From contig NC_017076.1 in the NCBI RefSeq assembly GCF_000284095.1, positions 1 through 64,000 on the forward strand: 64,000 bases of DNA, given 5' to 3'. The notes beneath the pieces were generated by a model that was not told the DNA's origin, searched no databases, and was given only the letters and a program-made list of their open reading frames with translations. A program made the translations under genes and the position numbers. This DNA comes from Selenomonas ruminantium subsp. lactilytica TAM6421. Lineage in GTDB: Bacteria > Bacillota > Negativicutes > Selenomonadales > Selenomonadaceae. Below, piece after piece: positions 37,290-47,186 of the stretch; within the stretch, counting starts at the first letter, position 1; every line of letters begins with the position of its first letter.

Positions 37290-37455
37290 AGTTTGTGGTT
37301 TGGAGGGGGTGCATGGCTGAAAATGCCCGTTTGTAGTGTGTAGATACGCAGTAGAGGGGTGTTTGCAGGGTATGCAAAATAGCCTGCAATAAAGGAATAG
37401 AGCAGACTGTTGACGAATTTGTATGAAAGAACTAAGTAGATGGAGGTGGCGCTAT

Positions 37456-38199
37456 GTGGCAGGAAAAATCGATGTGACATTTGATTTCACCAAGGATTCT
37501 CCTGGCTATTGGGATGGTTTTTGGGACCGGAATGAAGGACTGGGGGCAGGAGCATGTGACCCGGATGCTTGCAGCTCTACACTTCAAAGATATCATCAGC
37601 TGTTATGGAGCAGGACATTGCCTAATGGTGAAGCTTTTGAGCTGTTGCGAGGAACAGGCCACATGTATCTGAATTGGCGTGGTATGCGCTTCGGTAGTGA
37701 TTCTATACTGGCCAGTTTTCGTTATCGGGACAATAGGAGTGTCATTGAGGCAGTTAAACGGTCTATGCCTGATTACCAAACATTCATGGAAGATTTTCTG
37801 CATAAGACGTATACCATTGGTGGAATGATAATCTTCCCCAAGCATCATGACAGTATGAATCAACGCCGGGGTACTGATAAACAGATACGCGACCGCTGGG
37901 ATTTGACGCTGGAGTGTATCCGTAGATTTTATAATGGTGAAGCCAGTCCGCTGTCCGATGTGATGGAGCGGGACCGTGACTTCTTCGCACTATTTAATGA
38001 CTTCAAGGGATACGTGGACTTCTTTTACTTGCAGGACTGTGTGACGGAAGATTACAAGAAGGTACGGTTTTGGCTGGGGGATGGTAGCTTTACTGATCAA
38101 CCCTTACCGCAGACAGTTGAGGAATATTTGGCCTGGATTGCAGCTGAGCTGGATTTCGTGGAAAAGCGTAATGGCAGGATAAAGGCGGCGGTAGCATGA
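37456..38199 (+). CDS. DUF6994-like protein
   Basis: About 247 residues, hydrophilic, no signal peptide. Conserved blocks: FDFTKDSPGYWDGFWDRNEG, LRGTGHMYLNWRGMRFGSDS, YTIGGMIIFPKHHDSMNQRR and RDRWDLTLECIRRFYNGEAS. I recall this pattern as DUF6994; no biochemical function is known. GTG 37456 is preferred because GGAGG (37441-37445) precedes it; ATG 37423 is in frame but has no RBS. First gene of the accessory ADP-ribose/nucleotide cluster, ending 36 bp before the phosphatase-like gene. Confidence 0.7.
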   Translation: MAGKIDVTFDFTKDSPGYWDGFWDRNEGLGAGACDPDACSSTLQRYHQLLWSRTLPNGEAFELLRGTGHMYLNWRGMRFGSDSILASFRYRDNRSVIEAVKRSMPDYQTFMEDFLHKTYTIGGMIIFPKHHDSMNQRRGTDKQIRDRWDLTLECIRRFYNGEASPLSDVMERDRDFFALFNDFKGYVDFFYLQDCVTEDYKKVRFWLGDGSFTDQPLPQTVEEYLAWIAAELDFVEKRNGRIKAAVA

Positions 38200-38235
38200 G
38201 GCTTTTCTGATGGTAACAATGGATTAGGATGTGCG

Positions 38236-39588
38236 ATGATGAAAATAGCAACATGGAATGTAGAGCGACTAAAACATCAAACTTCCCTTGATAAAATGAT
38301 TTCTGCCATTGAGGCCGTTCAAGCTGATATCCTTGTGCTTACTGAAACCGATGAGCGCATAAAACCAAATTATCGTTATAGTTTCCATACCCAAAAATTA
38401 CATGGAGCACCAGCCGACTATCATATGCCGGGGCGTTATAAGGATTATGCCGTAGCTAATGTATACGCAGCTACGGAAAATAGGGTGTCTATCTATACTA
38501 ACTATCCATGTGCCATGCAATATGAAACTTATGACAGATATACTGCCTTATGCATCGAATTAGAGACCGAAGCCGGGAATTTACTGGTGTATGGCACAAT
38601 TATCGGTATCATCGGCAACCGGGATGAGTCGTTCAAGCAGGACTTGCTTCAGCAAGTAGGCGATTTTGAGCGTTTGTCAAAATTGGGGGATATATGCATC
38701 TGCGGGGATTTTAACTGTTCTTTTGCCGATAACTATTATTTTACGAACTTTGGCAGGGAGACACTCAGGGCATCTTTAACTCGTAACAAAATCTCCCTGC
38801 TCACGGGAAGTCAGCAGGAGTGTATCGATCATATTGCTATATCACGGAATTTTTTAGGTGTCGGTAATGTCACTATAACGGAGTGGAATTTGGATAAATC
38901 ACTGTCAGATCACAAAGGAATTGTCGCTGAAATTAAGCTCAATTCAGATATGAGAGCGGAGGCGTTCGGTATGAATCTTAGTGAGATGGGTTTTCGTGGC
39001 TTATATCGCAACTTCACTATTTTGCAATTAACAGAGCGGCTAAAATGTGCTGCTAATGAATTCCCTGGAGCAAATAACGCAGAGTATGCCCTGGTTTATG
39101 GGTATATTGACCATACTGCTGGTCTTACTCTTGAGATTTTATCGCTAGGCAATAAAAGTGGAGATGGATTTGAATTTGAAAATGGAAACAACGATATACG
39201 CTCATTCATCAGGGTAGGAGCAGTGAAAGACTGTATATTTTACAATGCTGATAACAACGAAGAGTATACGCCTCAGTACCGTGAGAAAATAGAAATGCTG
39301 AAGGGGTATACATCATCAGAAGATATAGAAAAAATTCGTGACATGACATTCTTGGACACTTGTCGGAGTGCGGAGTACCCCGATGATGTTTTGGTATATT
39401 TGTTCAAGGAAGGTTGCAAGCCTGAAGGATGCTGGGTAAGAGTTGAGAAAATTGCTGAGCCTGGATTAGCTGGCATTCTGCTAAATGAGCCTGACCAAAA
39501 TATAGGATGTCATGCAGGTGACATGATACAATTTGGCATTCAGCAATTAAAGGACGGAACCATAGTCTGTTTCTCGAATTTTGATTGA
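38236..39588 (+). CDS. Endonuclease/exonuclease/phosphatase domain protein with extra C-terminal domain
   Basis: 450 residues. The N-terminal 235 are an EEP fold: KIATWNVERLKHQTSLDKMI (Asn), LVLTETDERI (Glu), GDICICGDFNCSFADNYYF (catalytic Asp/Asn) and CIDHIAIS plus SLSDHKGIV (His). Residues 250-450 (ALVYGYIDHTAGLTLEILSL ... HAGDMIQFGIQQLKDGTIVC) form a second domain I do not recognise. Substrates of EEP proteins are DNA, RNA, phosphoinositides or nucleotides; here the neighbours suggest a nucleic acid or nucleotide. Two adjacent ATG codons open the gene. Confidence 0.8.
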   Translation: MMKIATWNVERLKHQTSLDKMISAIEAVQADILVLTETDERIKPNYRYSFHTQKLHGAPADYHMPGRYKDYAVANVYAATENRVSIYTNYPCAMQYETYDRYTALCIELETEAGNLLVYGTIIGIIGNRDESFKQDLLQQVGDFERLSKLGDICICGDFNCSFADNYYFTNFGRETLRASLTRNKISLLTGSQQECIDHIAISRNFLGVGNVTITEWNLDKSLSDHKGIVAEIKLNSDMRAEAFGMNLSEMGFRGLYRNFTILQLTERLKCAANEFPGANNAEYALVYGYIDHTAGLTLEILSLGNKSGDGFEFENGNNDIRSFIRVGAVKDCIFYNADNNEEYTPQYREKIEMLKGYTSSEDIEKIRDMTFLDTCRSAEYPDDVLVYLFKEGCKPEGCWVRVEKIAEPGLAGILLNEPDQNIGCHAGDMIQFGIQQLKDGTIVCFSNFD

Positions 39589-39642: not shown

Positions 39643-40653
39643 ATGCCATTAGAAATCGTACGTAACGACATAACGAAAATGCAGGTTGATGCCATTGTAA
39701 ATACGGCGAACCCAAAGCCAATAGTGGGTGGGGGCGTTGACCGGGCGATACACAAGGCGGCAGGAGCAGAGCTGCTGGTGGCACGGAAGAAAATCGGTGC
39801 CATTGCTACAGGTAAGGCAGAGGTTACACCAGCCTATGGCCTTCATGCCAAGTTTGTCATCCACACAGTAGGGCCAGTCTGGCAGGACGGGGGACATGGG
39901 GAGCGGGAACTGTTGTCCGATTGCTATGCAAATTCCCTAAAGCTGGCGGCAGAGAATGGTTGCAGTTCTATAGCCTTTCCGCTTATTTCGGCAGGCGTAT
40001 TTTGCTGCCCCTCGGAGATAGCCATAGCAGTGGCAACTCAGGCTATTAGGGATTTTTTGGCAGACCACGATATGGATGTCTATCTGGTGGTGTTTGACCA
40101 TAAGGCGTTCAAAATCTCCAGTAGCCTGTTTGAGGATGTGCAGAGTTTCATTGATGAGAGATACATCGAGAAACGTCTGGCCGAGGAATATCGCGGGGAT
40201 ATGCGGGAAAGGCGCACGGTTTTTGAAGAAGCGCAAGAAGATGGATTTTTCGATATTCCGCAGTGGATGGGGAAATCAAAGGAACGTTCTCTGGAAGATT
40301 TGCTAGATGAGATTGACGATACCTTCTCTGAGGCATTGCTCAGGATTATCGACGCCAAGGGCAAGACAGACCCGGAAGTTTATAAGCGAGCCAATGTTGA
40401 CCGCAAGCTATTCTCGAAAATCCGCAACAATCCTGCCTACAAGCCAAGTAAGGCAACAGCATTGGCTTTTGCGGTAGCCTTGGAGCTGAATCTGGATGAA
40501 ACCAAGGATTTTATCGGACGGGCAGGCTATGCTCTGTCTCGTAGCAGTAAGTCGGATATTATCGTGGAGTACTTCATCCAGCATGGAGAGTTTGACATCA
40601 TCACCATCAACGAAACGCTCTTTGCCTTCGAGCAGCCACTCCTCGGTTGTTGA
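39643..40653 (+). CDS. Macro domain protein with C-terminal HTH-like domain
   Basis: Residues 1-170 are a macro domain that binds or removes ADP-ribose: VDAIVNTANPKPIVGGGVDR (Asn and glycine loop), AIATGKAEVTPAYGLHAKF, VIHTVGPVW, and IAFPLISAGVFCCP. Residues 205-330 are helical (LRIIDAKGKTDPEVYKRANV, then LFSKIRNNPAYKPSKATALA) and look like a DNA- or RNA-binding HTH. It could therefore be an ADP-ribose-sensing regulator. A GGGAG site precedes ATG 39643. Next downstream is an ADP-ribosylglycohydrolase. Two truncated relatives of the macro fold lie at 47349 and 57763. Confidence 0.87.
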   Translation: MPLEIVRNDITKMQVDAIVNTANPKPIVGGGVDRAIHKAAGAELLVARKKIGAIATGKAEVTPAYGLHAKFVIHTVGPVWQDGGHGERELLSDCYANSLKLAAENGCSSIAFPLISAGVFCCPSEIAIAVATQAIRDFLADHDMDVYLVVFDHKAFKISSSLFEDVQSFIDERYIEKRLAEEYRGDMRERRTVFEEAQEDGFFDIPQWMGKSKERSLEDLLDEIDDTFSEALLRIIDAKGKTDPEVYKRANVDRKLFSKIRNNPAYKPSKATALAFAVALELNLDETKDFIGRAGYALSRSSKSDIIVEYFIQHGEFDIITINETLFAFEQPLLGC

Positions 40654-40656
40654 TTT

Positions 40657-40700
40657 GTCGCACAGCAGGCGACCATACCAGCGTAGGATTTTGCTAGAAT
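40657..40700 (+). promoter_or_regulatory. GTCGC-N7-GCGAC operator with -10 (copy 1)
   Basis: GTCGC (40657-40661) and GCGAC (40669-40673) flank seven bases; TAGAAT (40695-40700) follows 22 bp later as -10. The palindrome overlaps the place where -35 should be, and -35 itself is poor, so an activator is plausible. The whole arrangement recurs at 42216 with the same distances. Confidence 0.75.
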
Positions 40701-40730
40701 AGAACCATCAAAGGAAAAGGAGTGATTGCT

Positions 40731-41654
40731 ATGCTGGGAGCAATTGTTGGTGACATTGTAGGTTCTGTTTACGAGTGGAACAATATCAAGACAAAAGATT
40801 TTCCGTTGTTCCGGGATGACTGCTTCTTCACGGATGATACGGTCATGACCTGTGCCGTGGCTGAGGCTATCATGAACGGTGGGGAGAAGGATGACTTTAT
40901 CGATGCCATGAAGAAATATGGCAGGATGTACCCTGATGCTGGCTATGGTGGCAGGTTTGGGGCATGGCTGTTCTCAGACAACCGTGAGCCGTATAACAGT
41001 TTTGGCAATGGCTCAGCCATGCGGGTGGCTCCCTGTGCCTGGGGGATGGACTGCGGCTTTTGTGCCAGAACGGGAATGTGGCCATCAAATGGCAGAGCCG
41101 GAGCAAGGTTATCTGCGGAGGTTACGCATAATCATCCAGAGGGTATTAAGGGAGCCATGGCAACTGCCGATGCAATATTCATGAACCGCTTTAACTTTGG
41201 TGGCTATTACCTTGATTATGGAAAGCCCATCAATGATAATCCGGAAGAATGCAAAAGACTTGTCAAGGAGCATATCGAGAAGGAGTATGGTTACGATTTG
41301 TCTCGTACTCTGGATGATATTCGCCCTGGCTACCAGTTTAACGAAACCTGTCAGGACACCGTGCCTCAGGCCATAATAGCATTTCTGGAAAGCACGGACT
41401 TTGAGGACGCTATACGCAATGCCATATCCCTTGGTGGTGACAGCGACACGCTGGCGGCAATCACCGGTAGCATTGCTGAAGCTGCCTACGGTATTCCTGA
41501 CTGGATTAAGGATAAGGCATATTCCTATCTGGATGAGCCGCTGAAGGATGTGCTACGGCGGTGGAGAAAGTATATAAGCAACATCAATGGTGATCGCGGA
41601 GCATTTCACACGATGCTTACCGGCATGAATGAATATCTCCGCAACAACCCTTAG
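40731..41654 (+). CDS. ADP-ribosylglycohydrolase (DraG family)
   Basis: 307 residues. Removes ADP-ribose from proteins or nucleic acids. Metal and substrate motifs: GAIVGDIVGSVYEWNN, FFTDDTVMTCAVAEAIM (two Asp), GNGSAMRVAPCAWG, and SLGGDSDTLAAITGSIAEAA (Asp pair). ATG 40731 follows GGAAAAGGAG; GTG 40722 is part of the ribosome binding region. Transcribed from its own GTCGC-N7-GCGAC promoter, directly after the macro-domain gene, so two ADP-ribose erasers stand side by side. Confidence 0.93.
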   Translation: MLGAIVGDIVGSVYEWNNIKTKDFPLFRDDCFFTDDTVMTCAVAEAIMNGGEKDDFIDAMKKYGRMYPDAGYGGRFGAWLFSDNREPYNSFGNGSAMRVAPCAWGMDCGFCARTGMWPSNGRAGARLSAEVTHNHPEGIKGAMATADAIFMNRFNFGGYYLDYGKPINDNPEECKRLVKEHIEKEYGYDLSRTLDDIRPGYQFNETCQDTVPQAIIAFLESTDFEDAIRNAISLGGDSDTLAAITGSIAEAAYGIPDWIKDKAYSYLDEPLKDVLRRWRKYISNINGDRGAFHTMLTGMNEYLRNNP

Positions 41655-41714
41655 GTGTGATGTGGTGAAGTTTTCAAGGCGCTGGAGGAGGGGACGACCG
41701 AGCAGGAGGGAACC

Positions 41715-41951
41715 ATGAACCTATCAGATAATGTAACACGGGATATGTTGGCTGATGTTATCGAGCAGGCGCTGGAAGATATTGAAGCACATAGGTCAGA
41801 GGCTAGAGCGGCTTACGAGGCAGATAACAGCGATTCGTTCCATATGAATATGGATATAATGTTTGGGCTGGCTATTGATGTTTTTCGGTCACGCCTGTCT
41901 ACATTGTGTGAAGATGAATGCAATGAGAATAGGAATTCAAAAGGCAGTTAA
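41715..41951 (+). CDS. Small acidic protein, unknown
   Basis: 78 residues with a perfect AGGAGGG site before ATG 41715. Helical and acidic (MLADVIEQALEDIEAHRSEA; FHMNMDIMFGLAIDVFRSRL). Not recognised. Between the glycohydrolase and the vWA gene, probably co-transcribed with the former. Confidence 0.6.
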   Translation: MNLSDNVTRDMLADVIEQALEDIEAHRSEARAAYEADNSDSFHMNMDIMFGLAIDVFRSRLSTLCEDECNENRNSKGS

Positions 41952-41980
41952 GGAACTTTTTATAGAAGGGATGGCGCTGG

Positions 41981-42211
41981 ATGTGTCAAAAGGGTGAGTT
42001 CTATAAAGAATTGGCGATATATGTGTATGAAAAATTCGGTCTGACGAAGGATGACATCTTAGCCATGGGGGAGGAAGAACTCAACACATTATACGAAAAG
42101 GCCTGCGATAATGAAACAGATGAAGTTTGCAGGTGTGAGGATATTGACTACGGAGACAATAAAGAATTGAAATTAGCAGAAGATTTTTCAGATTGGTTGG
42201 CAGATCTATGA
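41981..42211 (+). CDS. Small acidic protein, unknown
   Basis: 76 residues (MCQKGEFYKELAIYVYEKFG, LTKDDILAMGEEELNTLYEK), negatively charged and helical. GAAGGGA lies 8 bases before ATG 41981. It ends just before the second GTCGC-N7-GCGAC promoter. Family not recognised; could be a small partner of the vWA or glycohydrolase proteins. Confidence 0.55.
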   Translation: MCQKGEFYKELAIYVYEKFGLTKDDILAMGEEELNTLYEKACDNETDEVCRCEDIDYGDNKELKLAEDFSDWLADL

Positions 42212-42215
42212 TAAT

Positions 42216-42259
42216 GTCGCATGACAGGCGACCAAAGGCCCCCTTGTCTTAGGTAGAAT
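42216..42259 (+). promoter_or_regulatory. GTCGC-N7-GCGAC operator with -10 (copy 2)
   Basis: GTCGC (42216-42220), GCGAC (42228-42232), TAGAAT (42254-42259), then ATG 42290. From the palindrome end to the -10 is 22 bp and to the ATG 58 bp, exactly as at 40657. The shared bases include GTCGCA...CAGGCGACCA and TAGAATA, then ATCAAAG. Confidence 0.75.
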
Positions 42260-42289
42260 AAAACTATCAAAGATAAGGGGGCGTTTTCA

Positions 42290-42946
42290 ATGAAGAAAGG
42301 ATTAACAGAAATCGTGTTTATTCTGGATAGGAGTGGCTCCATGAGCGGCTTGGAGGCTGATACCATCGGCGGCTTCAACTCACTCATCAAGAAGCAGCGG
42401 AAGGAGCCAGGAGAGGCTATTGTTTCCACAGTGTTGTTTGATGATACCTGCGATGTCATCCACGACAGGGTGCCGATGGAAAAGGTAGCAAAGCTGACGG
42501 AAGATACCTACTTTGTCCGTGGTTGCACGGCACTGCTGGATGCCGTAGGTGGTGCTATTCACCATATCGGTAACATTCACAAGTATGCTCGTGATGAGGA
42601 TAGGCCGGAGAAGACGCTGTTCATCATCACCACCGATGGCATGGAAAATGCCAGTCGGCGGTATACTTACAAGAAGGTCAAGAAGATGGTGGAGCGGCAG
42701 AAGGAGAAGTACGGTTGGGAGTTTCTGTTCCTGGGGGCCAATATGGATGCCATAGCAGCTGCAGGGAATATCGGCATCCATGCTGACAGGGCGGCTACCT
42801 ACCAGTGTGATGCGGAAGGGACGGCTCTCAACTATGAAGTACTAGAGGAAGCTATCCACCATGTGCGTAACTTCTCTGAGCCACTGGCACCTTGTTGGAT
42901 GCGTAAGATTGATGAGGATGTAAAGCGGCGTGGCGGCAGAAAATAA
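42290..42946 (+). CDS. von Willebrand factor type A domain protein
   Basis: 218 residues forming a single vWA domain. The metal-ion site is FILDRSGSMSGLEADTI (DxSxS), then TALLDAVG (Thr) and FIITTDGMENASRRYT (Asp). Cytosolic, no signal peptide. Proteins of this small vWA type are found next to ADP-ribose, TerD-like or kinase genes; it probably scaffolds a complex. It has its own promoter with the palindrome shared with the ADP-ribosylglycohydrolase gene. Confidence 0.88.
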   Translation: MKKGLTEIVFILDRSGSMSGLEADTIGGFNSLIKKQRKEPGEAIVSTVLFDDTCDVIHDRVPMEKVAKLTEDTYFVRGCTALLDAVGGAIHHIGNIHKYARDEDRPEKTLFIITTDGMENASRRYTYKKVKKMVERQKEKYGWEFLFLGANMDAIAAAGNIGIHADRAATYQCDAEGTALNYEVLEEAIHHVRNFSEPLAPCWMRKIDEDVKRRGGRK

Positions 42947-43069
42947 AAGCGACTATGAGGCTGCTCGGCAGATGGCTGGGCAGTCTTTTTGTTCGGTTTT
43001 GCTAGAGAACAGCCCCTCTCTGGTGTATAATGGATATTGAAAATTATAGGAACGAACGGGAGATTTACA

Positions 43070-43582
43070 TTGAAGGTACTGAATTTTTATGGCGGCGCTG
43101 GCATTGGCAAGAGTACCATCGCCGCTGACATATTTTCGAAGCTGAAGCGCAAGGGGCATAAGACGGAATTGGTAGGTGAATACGCTAAGTGGCTGTGGTA
43201 TCAGAACGCCACAGACATAGTAGAAGACCAGCTATACCTTTTTGCCGAGCAGGTACATCGGCTGAAGACGCTGGAACGGTATGGCGTAGAGTATGCGGTC
43301 TGTGATTCGTCCCTACCGTTGAATATCATCTACAACAACACGCCGGATGAGCTATTTGATCAGCTGGTGATGCATGAACATGCCAAGTTTGACAATGTGG
43401 AATACCTTCTGCGGCGCAATGACGAGTTTATCAGCATCGATGGGCGCAAGGAGACCAATCTGGAACGGGCAAAGATGAAGGACGAGGAAATCAAGGTAGT
43501 TCTGGAGGGGGCTGGGATTAGCTATACGGTCATATCTCCTTGGGAGACAGACAAGGTACTGCTGGACTTGAAGATGAAGTGA
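43070..43582 (+). CDS. P-loop kinase/ATPase (AAA_28-like)
   Basis: About 170 residues starting at TTG 43070 (KVLNFYGGAGIGKSTIAADI); GGGAG lies 9 bases before. The frame is open to TTG 43037 but TATAAT at 43026-43031 makes that too early. Walker A GGAGIGKST; the second strand has VEYAVCDSSLPLNIIYN, like a small-molecule kinase Walker B. The fold resembles NadR-type or deoxynucleotide kinases, so a nucleoside or NMN-like substrate is plausible. The DNPH1-like gene originally followed directly, as the remnant at 43593 shows. Confidence 0.75.
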   Translation: MKVLNFYGGAGIGKSTIAADIFSKLKRKGHKTELVGEYAKWLWYQNATDIVEDQLYLFAEQVHRLKTLERYGVEYAVCDSSLPLNIIYNNTPDELFDQLVMHEHAKFDNVEYLLRRNDEFISIDGRKETNLERAKMKDEEIKVVLEGAGISYTVISPWETDKVLLDLKMK

Positions 43583-43623
43583 GGTGCGGGCAATGAAGGT
43601 ATATTTTGCTGGCTCCATCCGTG
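43550..43623 (+). repeat. Left copy of a duplicated gene junction
   Basis: End of the kinase gene (ACTGCTGGACTTGAAGATG), its stop and the start of a DNPH1-like gene (ATGAAGGTATATTTTGCTGG). A diverged copy of the same junction is at 44724-44797. The two copies bracket the NUDIX and PUA/EVE-like genes. Confidence 0.75.
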
Positions 43624-43640
43624 ATGTGGTGTTGAAATAA
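43593..43640 (+). pseudogene. 5' stub of a DNPH1-like gene
   Basis: ATG 43593 gives MKVYFAGSIRDVVLK then TAA. The first ten residues equal those of the intact gene at 44767 (MKVYFAGSIRGG). The rest has been lost. Confidence 0.75.
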
Positions 43641-43687
43641 GCTGCTTTATTAGAAGTTTAAGTTTTAGGCGATGGAGATACGAGTTG

Positions 43688-44086
43688 ATGAAAAGTATAG
43701 AAGTCGTTGCCGCTGCAATATATAAAGATGGCAAGGTATTGGCTGCACAGCGGGGCTATGGTGAATTTAAGGGCGGTTGGGAATTTCCAGGGGGAAAAGT
43801 TGAGCCTGGAGAATCGCTTGAGGAAGCGATTGTGCGCGAAATTCAAGAAGAAATGGAAACGATGATTGAAGTCGGTGAAAAGATCGGAATCGTTGAGTAT
43901 GATTACCCCAACTTTCACCTCAAGATGCACTGCTTCTGGGCAAAGGTAAAAGAAGGAGAATTTAAGCTCTTAGAACATGATGAAGTTATGTGGTTAGATA
44001 AGAAGAGTATCCAAACTTTACAGTGGTTGCCGGCAGATGTGGAGCTAGTGGAGAAAGTTGCGAAGAGATTGGATTATCATTCATGA
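43688..44086 (+). CDS. NUDIX hydrolase (MutT/8-oxo-dGTPase-like)
   Basis: 132 residues. The Nudix box is GGKVEPGESLEEAIVREIQE then EM; the final Gly of the consensus is Glu/Thr as in several MutT homologues. The N-terminus VVAAAIYKDGKVLAAQRGYG and KGGWEFPGGKVE follow the CTP/8-oxo-dGTP diphosphatase type. In this cluster it might instead cleave ADP-ribose or a modified nucleotide. ATG 43688 with GGAG upstream; TTG 43685 is in frame too. Confidence 0.88.
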   Translation: MKSIEVVAAAIYKDGKVLAAQRGYGEFKGGWEFPGGKVEPGESLEEAIVREIQEEMETMIEVGEKIGIVEYDYPNFHLKMHCFWAKVKEGEFKLLEHDEVMWLDKKSIQTLQWLPADVELVEKVAKRLDYHS

Positions 44087-44136
44087 CGAATTACTGGCGT
44101 TATAGTCAGCGATATATTTTTAGAGGTGATAACTAA

Positions 44137-44667
44137 ATGTCCATATTTTATGTATATCAAAATCAGACGTACCAGCATGAACATGACGGTGGCTATGTAT
44201 GGTCGCCACAACGTGATAAAAGAGGTTGTGAGAATCAAGGATATAAAATCATGACGGAGATACGTAAGGGTGATTTCATCATCCATCATGCTAGCACAGC
44301 TATTCAGGCGGTAGGAATAGCCACTTCTGATTGTTATGAATCACAGCAGCCGCGGGCGCTGAAAGATGCTAAGACGGATGTGGATTGGGATAATGATGGC
44401 TATCGCGTGGATGTAGACTACGTTGACTTCGATGTGCCACTCGATATGCGTACGTGTAAGTCGTGGCTGGCAGAGCATTGGACACAGAATAGTGCTTTCA
44501 ATCGCAAGGGTATGGGAAAACAGCAGTACATGTGTCATGTGTCTAATGAACACGTGCTATTTTTGATGGAACAGTCACTAAAGCATCAACGCCGCACTTC
44601 CGTCAAAGAAATTATAGAGCGGGTTATGGTGCAGGCTGGTGGTAGGTTTGCATCGAGGCGTCACTGA
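44137..44667 (+). CDS. PUA/EVE-like domain protein
   Basis: 176 residues. The pattern SIFYVYQNQTYQHEHDGGYV, then RKGDFIIHHASTAIQAVGIA, and MGKQQYMCHVSNEHVLFLM resembles the EVE/PUA-like modules found at the N-terminus of modified-base-dependent restriction enzymes (McrB- and HNH-linked). Such domains bind modified nucleobases. Here it stands alone, without a nuclease domain. GAGGTG precedes the ATG. It forms a pair with the NUDIX gene between the duplicated junctions. Confidence 0.6.
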   Translation: MSIFYVYQNQTYQHEHDGGYVWSPQRDKRGCENQGYKIMTEIRKGDFIIHHASTAIQAVGIATSDCYESQQPRALKDAKTDVDWDNDGYRVDVDYVDFDVPLDMRTCKSWLAEHWTQNSAFNRKGMGKQQYMCHVSNEHVLFLMEQSLKHQRRTSVKEIIERVMVQAGGRFASRRH

Positions 44668-44723
44668 TTACGCCAAAGTGGCATTGTTATTACAATGTGG
44701 AGTGTTTGCTGTGTTAATCTGTC

Positions 44724-44797
44724 GATGAGGTGCTGCTGGATTTGAAGAAGAAATGAGGCTCATAATATGAAGGTGTATTTTGCAGGCTCCATCCGTG
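44724..44797 (+). repeat. Right copy of the duplicated gene junction
   Basis: A kinase-gene tail (GTGCTGCTGGATTTGAAGAA, encoding EVLLDLKKK and stop at 44754) without the rest of its gene, followed by the start of the intact DNPH1-like gene. About 80% identical to 43550-43623. Confidence 0.75.
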
Positions 44798-45237
44798 GGG
44801 GGCGGCAGGACGTAGAGCTCTACCGCAAGGTTATAGCGGTTTTAAAGGAGAGACACCAGGTGCTTACTGAGCATGTGGGCGACCTTAGTTTGTCTACGGT
44901 GGAAGACAAAGGTGATAAAGCCATATATGAACAGGATACAGCTTGGTTGCGGGAATGTGACATTGTGGTAGCAGAATGTACACAGGTGTCATTAGGCGTA
45001 GGCTATGAACTGGCTTATGCTGAGGCGCATGGCAAGGAAGTACATATTTTCTATCGTCCCCAGGAGACGCAGCTCTCGGCTATGCTATCGGGGAATGAAC
45101 GGTTCCACATCCACAGATATGCTGATGAAAATGAGATATTGGCATGGGCGAGAGGACTTGATGAGGCGCTTACGTGTGTTAAAGTATATAAGCAGAGCGG
45201 ATTGGAAGTGCCGGTGCAGACGGATATAAGTGAATAG
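44767..45237 (+). CDS. DNPH1/Rcl-like 2'-deoxynucleoside 5'-phosphate N-hydrolase
   Basis: 156 residues of the nucleoside deoxyribosyltransferase superfamily. MKVYFAGSIRGGRQDVELYR and VLTEHVGDLSLS, then WLRECDIVVAECTQVSLGVG with YELAYAEA (catalytic Glu) are closest to DNPH1, which hydrolyses the glycosidic bond of deoxynucleotides such as modified dCMP or dUMP. GAGGCT upstream. No signal peptide, unlike the relative at 9434. Probably sanitises nucleotides together with the NUDIX and kinase proteins. Confidence 0.82.
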   Translation: MKVYFAGSIRGGRQDVELYRKVIAVLKERHQVLTEHVGDLSLSTVEDKGDKAIYEQDTAWLRECDIVVAECTQVSLGVGYELAYAEAHGKEVHIFYRPQETQLSAMLSGNERFHIHRYADENEILAWARGLDEALTCVKVYKQSGLEVPVQTDISE

Positions 45238-45377: not shown

Positions 45378-47186
45378 TCACAGTTTCTCATAATAATCAC
45401 GTATCTTCTTGGCCATCAACGCACGGCGTTCCTTCAAAAATTCAGGGTAATCAGATGAGGTCATTGTGGTAATTCTATGGGGGATACAGTTGGCATCCAG
45501 ATTTTCCCAGAAAACGGATTCCTCTGCAATTGTACCGCAGGTGAGCTTGTCAGTACCACATTGTGACAGTGCTTGATTGAAATAATCGTTTGGGGCCTTT
45601 TTGCCCACGGCAATGTTGACCGTGGTATCGAGATAGGTATAGTTCGCCACTTGGTTATAAAGTGATTTGTCGTTATAACCGTTTTGCTTCAGATACTCCT
45701 TGGGGAAGATGTGATGAACATCCCCGGCTACAGTAATAAGGTGCTCCACTTTGGAGGTGGTGGACAACAAGGAATGATCACCGAAGAAAACTTGCGCTGC
45801 TAAGTAAGTATTGAAATAAGGGCTGCTGATGGAGGAAGTCTCCATACTCTGCACGAGGCGTACGTTCCAGAAGGTATCAGAGAGCATAGATTCTTCATTT
45901 TCCTTGAAGAATATTAAAAAGCCCTTGTCCTTGATACCGCGCAAGTCCCTGTCCATCTGAGATTCTGGAGAGGAAATATAGCGCCCGGTCAGGACTGAGA
46001 GTACGAACCATTTCTGAATGTATCGCTTGATTTCGGTCTTTGCCACTTCGTCACCGTTCTGCAGGATGAGGAAAAGGGTATATGCAAAATCTAGTGTCAT
46101 CATTGAGTTTATTAGCTTGGAAGAGATGAAACCGGCAGACTTGATGGCTAGTACAAATTGCTTGAAGTTGTATTCGCTCATGAAATTCAGTATGCCGTTC
46201 GCCAGCTTCTTAAAGCTGTTCTCTGCGATTTCCTCCTTAAAGGAGCGGTCCTTGAAATCCCTGCCGGAGAGAAGACTCACCAAGTCACCCAGTTTGCCAC
46301 GATTGAACTGGTGCATGAAGGAAACACGCAGCATATCATTATATTCCGGGTCGTAGATGTCATCGTAATCGTCCTTAAGCCATTTCATCTTGGCACCGTA
46401 GGGAGACTGCATGAACTCAGCATCCACGGTTTTCAGTTTGCTGTAGAATGCTGGTTCTACGGCGAGGTGGCAGAAATAATCGATGGCTTTGCGGAGTAGG
46501 TTGCCACCATAGCCTTCGTCAGCAGCAATTTTAGACATGGCGAAATCAGCTTCATTGAGCCGCTTCCCCTGGGAATTGATGCGCACGAAGATTTCTGTTA
46601 CTTCACTAATATCCAGTTGTGGTATAAGCTCAATGGCTCCGATTTGGCAATTCTGTATACCGAGTAGTTTCAGGATTGCTTTATTGACTTCACTTTTCGA
46701 GACGGAGGGGTTCTTCGCCGTGAATTCTTCAATAAAGCCATAGCTGTCGAATTCTGGCTTGAATACTTCGGAAATATCTGCAATCCACATGGGACTCTTA
46801 ATGTGGACGGGGGTATGTACGGCAAACCGTTCTTCATCCTCACCTGCAATGGGGTTGAAGGCAATGCGGATGGGTTTTTCTTCGTAATTTTCAGTTAGTA
46901 TGTTCTGTCCGGCTATGGCTGCCATGAGTGCTGTGATACGTTGCTGTCCATCGATGAGGATTTTCTTTCCTACGGAACTGGAGCCATCCTTAAGCTTCAC
47001 GTTTCCGTTTTGCCAGATTATGATGTAACCGGTGGGGTAGCCGTTGTATAGAGAATCTATCAGGTCACGCACTTTGCTGGCCTTCCAGACAAAAGGACGT
47101 TGGATTTCAGGAATGGCGATGTTGCCTCCTTCAATGAAGCCCAATAGGGTATTTACAGAATATTGATTTACATTATATTTGCTCAT
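45378..47186 (-). CDS. DUF262 (ParB/Srx fold) - DUF1524 (HNH) protein, GmrSD-like
   Basis: 602 residues. The N-terminal DUF262 has YSVNTLLGFIEGGNIAIPEI, QRPFVWKASKVRDLIDSLYN and ILIDGQQRITALMAA, the NTP-binding DGQQR motif. The middle is helical. The C-terminal part contains the HNH-type VHHIFPKEYLK and NYTYLDTTVNIAVGKKAPND. GmrSD-like proteins act in type IV restriction of modified phage DNA; related BrxU-type enzymes do the same. Monocistronic on the minus strand, beside nucleotide- and ADP-ribose-related genes, in keeping with a defence island. Confidence 0.85.
   Translation of the reverse strand: MSKYNVNQYSVNTLLGFIEGGNIAIPEIQRPFVWKASKVRDLIDSLYNGYPTGYIIIWQNGNVKLKDGSSSVGKKILIDGQQRITALMAAIAGQNILTENYEEKPIRIAFNPIAGEDEERFAVHTPVHIKSPMWIADISEVFKPEFDSYGFIEEFTAKNPSVSKSEVNKAILKLLGIQNCQIGAIELIPQLDISEVTEIFVRINSQGKRLNEADFAMSKIAADEGYGGNLLRKAIDYFCHLAVEPAFYSKLKTVDAEFMQSPYGAKMKWLKDDYDDIYDPEYNDMLRVSFMHQFNRGKLGDLVSLLSGRDFKDRSFKEEIAENSFKKLANGILNFMSEYNFKQFVLAIKSAGFISSKLINSMMTLDFAYTLFLILQNGDEVAKTEIKRYIQKWFVLSVLTGRYISSPESQMDRDLRGIKDKGFLIFFKENEESMLSDTFWNVRLVQSMETSSISSPYFNTYLAAQVFFGDHSLLSTTSKVEHLITVAGDVHHIFPKEYLKQNGYNDKSLYNQVANYTYLDTTVNIAVGKKAPNDYFNQALSQCGTDKLTCGTIAEESVFWENLDANCIPHRITTMTSSDYPEFLKERRALMAKKIRDYYEKL

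Follow-up and report, generated by a model that had tools for sequence, protein, structure and literature searches.

Paired palindromic promoters and a candidate macro-domain HTH regulator in Selenomonas ruminantium and related bacteria

Lambda cI at OR2/PRM is an example of class II activation, in which a 17-bp operator is centred at about -42, the classical activator position, and the promoter has a poor or missing -35 element. Many lambda-repressor-like helix-turn-helix (HTH) proteins are repressors. Macro domains are well-studied ADP-ribose binders, and a literature search covering few subscription journals turned up none that forms the basis of a transcription regulator in bacteria. To our knowledge, a macro domain is no part of SinR of Bacillus subtilis. 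For conflict systems centred on vWA domains or on NAD+ and ADP-ribose, the accessible parts of two papers place macro and Nudix domains among the vWA-associated effectors and assign like reactions on ADP-ribose to macro and ADP-ribosylglycohydrolase domains. Neither a macro-HTH regulator nor an operator or a read-through hairpin is mentioned there (PMC7159879, PMC9503650).

The locus considered here lies in a stretch of 64,000 nucleotides from Selenomonas ruminantium subsp. lactilytica TAM6421 (NC_017076.1, positions 1 to 64,000; hereafter the window). Like lambda cI at OR2/PRM, it combines a lambda-repressor-like HTH domain with a 17-bp operator centred near -42 and a promoter whose -35 box is poor or absent. 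Unlike lambda cI, the partner of the HTH domain is a macro domain and not a peptidase-like domain, the system is cellular rather than phage-borne, and activation is something that we infer. The macro domain resembles those of the MacroD/YmdB type in matching Pfam Macro and solved MacroD-type chains, but here it is fused to an HTH domain. SinR shares the HTH fold, and its recognition helix AGVAKSYLSSI lines up with the helix AGIAKSVFSKI of a paralog of the window protein. According to the accessible part of its source, the SinR site is GTTCTYT, which begins with GTT as does the GTTGC operator class described below, but SinR is a repressor and its site departs from that class in the bases that follow (PMC3163267).

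Genes, putative operators and promoters of the window

The proposed regulator is a 336-residue protein encoded at 39,643–40,653 on the plus strand, as are the next four genes described. Its macro domain spans residues 19–130 (39,697–40,032; Pfam Macro, 2.1e-37) and scored 128.1 bits against a curated cut-off of 22, and its closest solved chains are DR_2288 (9w48) and 1spv, which we take to be E. coli YmdB. The C-terminal HTH domain (40,255–40,650, as delimited in alignment A1) was modelled with AlphaFold2 at a mean pLDDT of 90.7. In fold comparison the model resembled SinR, 434 Cro, P22 c2 and restriction-modification controllers at Z 8–10, as expected of an XRE or lambda-repressor-like fold, though helical models can reach such Z by chance. 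The top row was 9a7f (Z 10.4), followed by the SinR-DNA complex 3zkc (Z 9.0, rmsd 1.8 over 63) and, at Z 8.5 each, 434 Cro-OR1 (3cro) and P22 c2 (3jxb). Every Foldseek E-value for the HTH model exceeded 0.05, and scores against the curated Pfam HTH families stayed below their cut-offs, both for the window domain (HTH_26, 15.4 against 22) and for the best relative scanned, from locus L062 (HTH_3, 21.2 against 23). Among HTH-containing reading frames, 80 of 199 have at least 300 codons; in ten hand-picked HTH proteins scanned for a macro domain, all eight long ones carried it and neither of the two short ones did.

The gene directly downstream encodes an ADP-ribosylglycohydrolase of 307 residues (40,731–41,654; Pfam ADP_ribosyl_GH, 5.7e-32), which would be the first target. 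It is followed by two small ORFs encoding 78 and 76 residues (41,715–41,951 and 41,981–42,211), both lacking a Pfam match and perhaps cotranscribed with it. The putative second target is a vWA-domain gene of 218 residues (42,290–42,946), whose match to Pfam VWA_CoxE (1.8e-4) lies below the cut-off of that family. None of the PADLOC 2.0.0 defence models matched the macro-HTH, glycohydrolase or vWA proteins at E 0.01. Elsewhere in the window, a 602-residue protein on the minus strand (45,378–47,186) matched HEC-05 and similar defence models of PADLOC (best 3.4e-27). A DUF6994 gene and an endonuclease/exonuclease/phosphatase gene occupy 37,423–39,588 directly 5' of the macro-HTH gene, a pair that also precedes it in locus L097. 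The region after the vWA gene (43,067–45,237) encodes an AAA_28 kinase-like protein, a protein that looks NUDIX-like by eye, one without a Pfam match and a nucleoside 2-deoxyribosyltransferase.

Two copies of the palindrome GTCGC-N7-GCGAC, to which no strand is assigned, were described in the initial annotation at 40,657–40,673 and 42,216–42,232, and both are exact. The first begins 3 bp past the macro-HTH stop codon, and its arms match in the five outer bases only. The spacings reported with them also hold. In both copies the -10 element TAGAAT (40,695–40,700 and 42,254–42,259, plus strand) begins 22 positions past the palindrome end, leaving 21 bases between, and the ATG lies 58 positions past it (at 40,731 and 42,290), leaving 57. 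As claimed, the two leaders also have CAGGCGACCA and ATCAAAG in common. ATCAAAG is the predicted transcription start region, with starts at 40,707 and 42,266, because in a set of 160 sites with a 21-base gap the base at -1 is a pyrimidine (0.93) and that at +1 a purine (0.88), although neither was demanded by the search. Window operator 1 is not part of this set, as its dyad is too short for the filter.

By itself the palindrome is not rare. Allowing one mismatch, the window holds three matches where 0.66 are expected, a number reached in 5 of 100 shuffles. The exact form occurs three times in the whole genome (3.63 Mb) compared with 11 times per strand for a reversed control pattern, and the ten specified bases alone are therefore not significant. 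Adding a TAnnnT element 20–21 bases downstream leaves just the two window copies in this genome (reversed control, 2); the third exact palindrome (C1:148073) has no -10 element at that distance. The genome-wide scan proposed in the initial annotation accordingly found the bare palindrome at chance level and the palindrome with its -10 element at the two window promoters only. Occurrence at random positions without promoters, which the initial annotation had set against its reading, describes the former and not the latter. The strength of the observation lies in two adjacent copies with identical spacing and in their recurrence in other genomes. Seven further matches in this genome, with up to three mismatches, proved to be one stretch within transposase-like copies, presumably IS200/605, and were dropped as operators.

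The 160 sites give the consensus operator AAAT-GTCGC-N-TG-N-CA-N-GCGAC-C. With position -12 assigned to the first T of the -10 element, the palindrome covers -50 to -34 with its centre at about -42, where class II activators have their sites (near -41/-42). These promoters also have no good -35 box: the best match to TTGACA was 3/6, found in just 5 of the 160 sites and below shuffle level.

Recurrence of the operator, its target genes and the HTH domain

Across 189 genomes of the family Selenomonadaceae, the shared part of the palindrome was found in 61 when no promoter was demanded, and the operator with a -10 element in 69. We took 51 stretches around the shared-palindrome matches (except for L104, which came from the mismatch search of the TAM6421 genome) and added the window. 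Together these contain 162 oriented exact palindromes, of which 83 have TAnnnT at 17–26 bases downstream; the gap is 21 in 51 of them and 20 in 17. According to the cluster table, the genes 3' of the family palindromes encode a vWA protein in 24 loci and an ADP-ribosylglycohydrolase in 15, and an HTH domain of the window type lies directly 5' of many of them. The domain is present in 67 of the 69 genomes with operator and -10 element against 69 of the 120 without the motif (Fisher p = 2.6e-10, relatedness ignored). For 115 of 191 distinct HTH domains, a palindrome was found in the interval from 80 bp ahead of the stop codon to 300 bp beyond it, at a median of 11 bp past that codon; the interval was empty for the other 76. 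In these counts identical domains and identical leaders were counted once, and HTH matches of fewer than 60 aligned residues were left out (fewer than 90 for the tree below).

A scan of named genomes for 19 specified bases returned at least 120 stretches in 257 Gb, which are not a random sample, where about four would be expected by chance at equal base use. Among the matches listed, 105 of 122 sites have a vWA start within 260 bp downstream and five an ADP-ribosylglycohydrolase start, while 12 precede neither; an HTH domain ends within 150 bp upstream of 59 sites and is absent from that interval at 63. By locus, 86 of the 120 listed contain the HTH domain, 105 a vWA gene and ten a glycohydrolase gene. 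The vWA gene is the commonest target in other genomes among the matches listed. Judged by title, the listed matches come mostly from Clostridia and Negativicutes (Lachnospiraceae, Oscillospiraceae, Ruminococcus, Selenomonas, Succiniclasticum), with exceptions in Fibrobacterales (L166), Anaerobiospirillum (L184), Chitinispirillia (L197), Anaerolineaceae (L224) and Fibrobacter (L249). Some named loci and family loci represent the same genomes (for example L172 and L088). The residue and leader tables below use 80 of the 120 named loci, and the other 40 (L220–L259) enter the neighbour count only.

In a viral collection, the tighter pattern with TAGAAT had no match, and the 19-base pattern matched seven contigs, in six of them before a vWA gene. 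Three IMG/VR contigs filed as viral (L372, L373 and L377) show the Selenomonas-type order of glycohydrolase, operator and vWA, and are possibly pieces of prophages or plasmids. A search of plasmid DNA gave five records at 60–80% identity; two regions were inspected and yielded nothing useful.

Recognition helix, third operator base and chromosomal paralogs

The recognition helix of the modelled HTH domain comprises residues 254–262 (model helix 50–58; 40,402–40,428, plus strand), and Lys255, encoded at 40,405–40,407, is its second residue. Across the HTH domains compared, the residue equal to Lys255 tracks the third base of the operator. Among all 115 HTH domains with a site, Lys or Arg goes with C in both half-sites in 81 of 82 cases, the exception being L314 with a C/T site, and all 17 domains with Ala, Glu, Phe, Ser or Thr have T or A there; Gln is divided between C/C (10) and C/A (5), and one row has no residue. 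Because many loci (L059–L109 and L140–L219, except L104 from the mismatch search) had been found through the GTCGC motif, those found through the protein were counted apart. In this protein-found set (L269–L288 and L292–L371, with some of L269–L288 chosen when the palindrome was already known), Lys or Arg is paired with C/C in 23 of 24, the Ala/Glu/Phe/Ser/Thr group with T or A in every one of 17 cases and with C/C in none, and Gln with C/C in 9 of 14.

Of the 130 alignment columns, that of Lys255 shares the most mutual information with the base, 0.718 of 0.892 bits with the next column at 0.595, when relatedness is ignored. A quick tree built from few columns gave, for the left half-site, two changes each of residue and base. 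A wider definition, chosen afterwards, gave six and seven changes and four independent pairs on supported branches, of which one to three agree and none disagree; the sign test was not significant and does not support many independent joint changes of residue and base. The correlation rests on few independent changes.

The TAM6421 chromosome itself carries a second cluster (C1, about 1.4267–1.4409 Mb, within locus L269 at C1:1423500-1443400). It contains two HTH paralogs together with five palindromes that read GTTGC..GCAAC or come close to it, all five with -10 elements at 20–21 bases. The genes 3' of these operators include those for an FtsZ-like protein, for a 146-residue protein whose gene precedes those of a protein kinase and a further vWA protein, and for a 233-residue protein. 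The GTTGC form of the paralog cluster fits the proposed residue-base code. Searching for the GTTGC motif first returned 16 sites in 9 of the 189 family genomes; among the rows listed, the reversed control never scored above 0. The 16 loci gave nine HTH matches representing eight genes, six of them already tabled and two new (L385, L387), and these have Glu, Ser or Ala at the Lys255 place and never Lys, Arg or Gln. SinR aligns with Ala-Lys-Ser at this residue triplet, placing Ser at the Lys255 position (a weak alignment, E 0.73, although the folds agree).

Asymmetric sites were also seen: ten loci (L331, L336, L337, L338, L343, L344, L346, L348, L352 and L364) have one GTCGC and one GTCAA-like half. 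Their domains mostly have Gln at the Lys255 place, with Arg in L331 and L346. One further locus, L325, has GTCAA on both sides.

Leader hairpins and the proposed mechanism

An inverted repeat surrounds the -10 element of the vWA promoter (42,234–42,286, plus strand). Its 3' arm holds the Shine-Dalgarno sequence, and its 5' arm (42,234–42,256) lies upstream of the predicted start. RNA reading through this leader is predicted to fold at -30.9 kcal/mol, while RNA beginning at +1 remains without structure. Folding the glycohydrolase leader of the window gave no such hairpin at its ribosome site. In an alignment of 17 of 18 leaders picked among the strongest repeats (L096 left out), the hairpin is compensated: changes on both sides affect 19 cells, where shuffles give 4.8 (none of 500 reached 19) and slid controls no more than 4. 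Two weaker measures set the leaders less apart, with four doubly changed pairs where shuffles give 2.0 (a number reached in 20 of 500 shuffles was at least four) and a number of pair types reached in 165 of 500.

We analysed 97 vWA leaders in all, leaving out one of 98 because its ribosome site is too near the start. In 43 of the 97, the ribosome site is predicted to be hidden by pairing to the untranscribed part, against about 5.6 expected from shuffles. A terminator with its 5' arm starting at -13 to -4 is predicted in 14 leaders compared with 0.3 in shuffles (L143, L150, L153, L154, L155, L160, L162, L167, L169, L190, L196, L199, L206 and L211). As that arm covers -10 to +1, these terminators could form in read-through RNA only. 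One or the other kind occurs in 54 of the 97 (19 of 35 family and 35 of 62 named-genome leaders) and neither in 43. An Rfam search of ten loci, including nine of the 14 with terminator-type leaders, found no family within the leaders, and two tRNAs and one SpF59 sRNA outside them.

The initial annotation proposed one regulator for both genes and named the neighbouring macro-HTH protein as the candidate. Comparative evidence speaks for both proposals, through the recurrence of the operator, the co-occurrence of the HTH domain with it (67 of 69 genomes), the proximity of the two, the tracking of operator base by helix residue, and a paralog cluster with a matching variant operator. The macro-HTH protein very probably binds both window operators and probably activates both promoters. 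Activation is favoured by the position of the palindrome at -50 to -34, by promoters without a -35 box and by the geometry of lambda cI at OR2/PRM. Repression by the same protein, which would block RNA polymerase at the -35 region until a ligand bound the macro domain, seems unlikely to us: an operator centre near -42 is the classical activator position, no -35 box is left to cover, and a gap to the -10 element of mostly 20–21 bases is unneeded for repression. Speaking for it, the extended -10 motif TGn is present in 48 of the 160 promoters and might dispense with a -35 box. Many lambda-repressor-like HTH proteins are repressors, including SinR according to the accessible part of its source (PMC3163267).

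Other explanations take the palindromes away from the macro-HTH protein. An unlinked protein might read them, with the HTH gene a mere neighbour or cotranscribed partner; adjacency by itself does not establish binding, and among the matches listed 63 of the 122 named-genome sites lack the end of an HTH domain in the 150 bp upstream. We consider this improbable, given that the operator base tracks the recognition-helix residue of the HTH domain, that the GTTGC variant adjoins paralogs with a fitting residue, and that the domain is present in all but two of the 69 genomes that carry operator and -10 element together. The fixed spacing to a conserved -10 element and the absence of an ordinary -35 box would also be expected if a special sigma factor used the palindrome as an extended promoter element, but the 17-bp dyad symmetry, the 21-base gap to an ordinary TAnAAT element and the variation of the palindrome in step with the HTH family make this very improbable. 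Least credible of all is a terminator or RNA hairpin closing the HTH gene. The palindrome does lie at a median of 11 bp past the HTH stop codon, and perfect copies could fold as RNA, yet the 160-site profile shows no T run after the palindrome, the spacing to the -10 element is fixed, window operator 1 pairs just five bases per arm, and copies occur away from HTH genes, such as that at 42,216 after the glycohydrolase gene and two small ORFs.

Our preferred reading, activation by the macro-HTH protein, can be put together as follows, and we consider it likely as a whole. The C-terminal HTH domain, as a dimer, would bind the 17-bp palindromes at 40,657 and 42,216, and Lys255 would read base pair 3 in each half-site. 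The bound dimer would most likely activate the ADP-ribosylglycohydrolase and vWA genes through contact with RNA polymerase. ADP-ribose, or a derivative of it, is most likely what the macro domain senses, and the switch would then respond to ADP-ribosylation or to NAD+ stress. RNA that reads into the vWA promoter from upstream, and no other, could form a hairpin that would hide the ribosome site and silence this RNA, so that the vWA protein would be made mainly from its own promoter.

More tentatively, and with somewhat less than even confidence, we suggest that this protein belongs to a large family, so far undescribed, of one-component activators that sense ADP-ribose and occur in Clostridia and Negativicutes, lambda-cI-like with a macro sensor. 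In this family Lys or Arg would specify GTCGC, Ala, Ser or Thr (with a few Glu and Phe) GTTGC or GTAGC, and Gln a mixture, and leaders would silence read-through by a hidden ribosome site or by a terminator with its arm in the promoter.

By sequence comparison, the two palindromes appear to exemplify a gene switch common to many gut and rumen bacteria. If this is true, regulator, operator, targets and a residue-level specificity code would be obtained at once for genes without an assigned function. The code suggests operator pairs that would not be expected to cross-react, and the read-through hairpins may represent a compact insulation of a promoter from the gene upstream. The proposed switch also raises the question of whether ADP-ribose or a relative of it signals to bacterial transcription.
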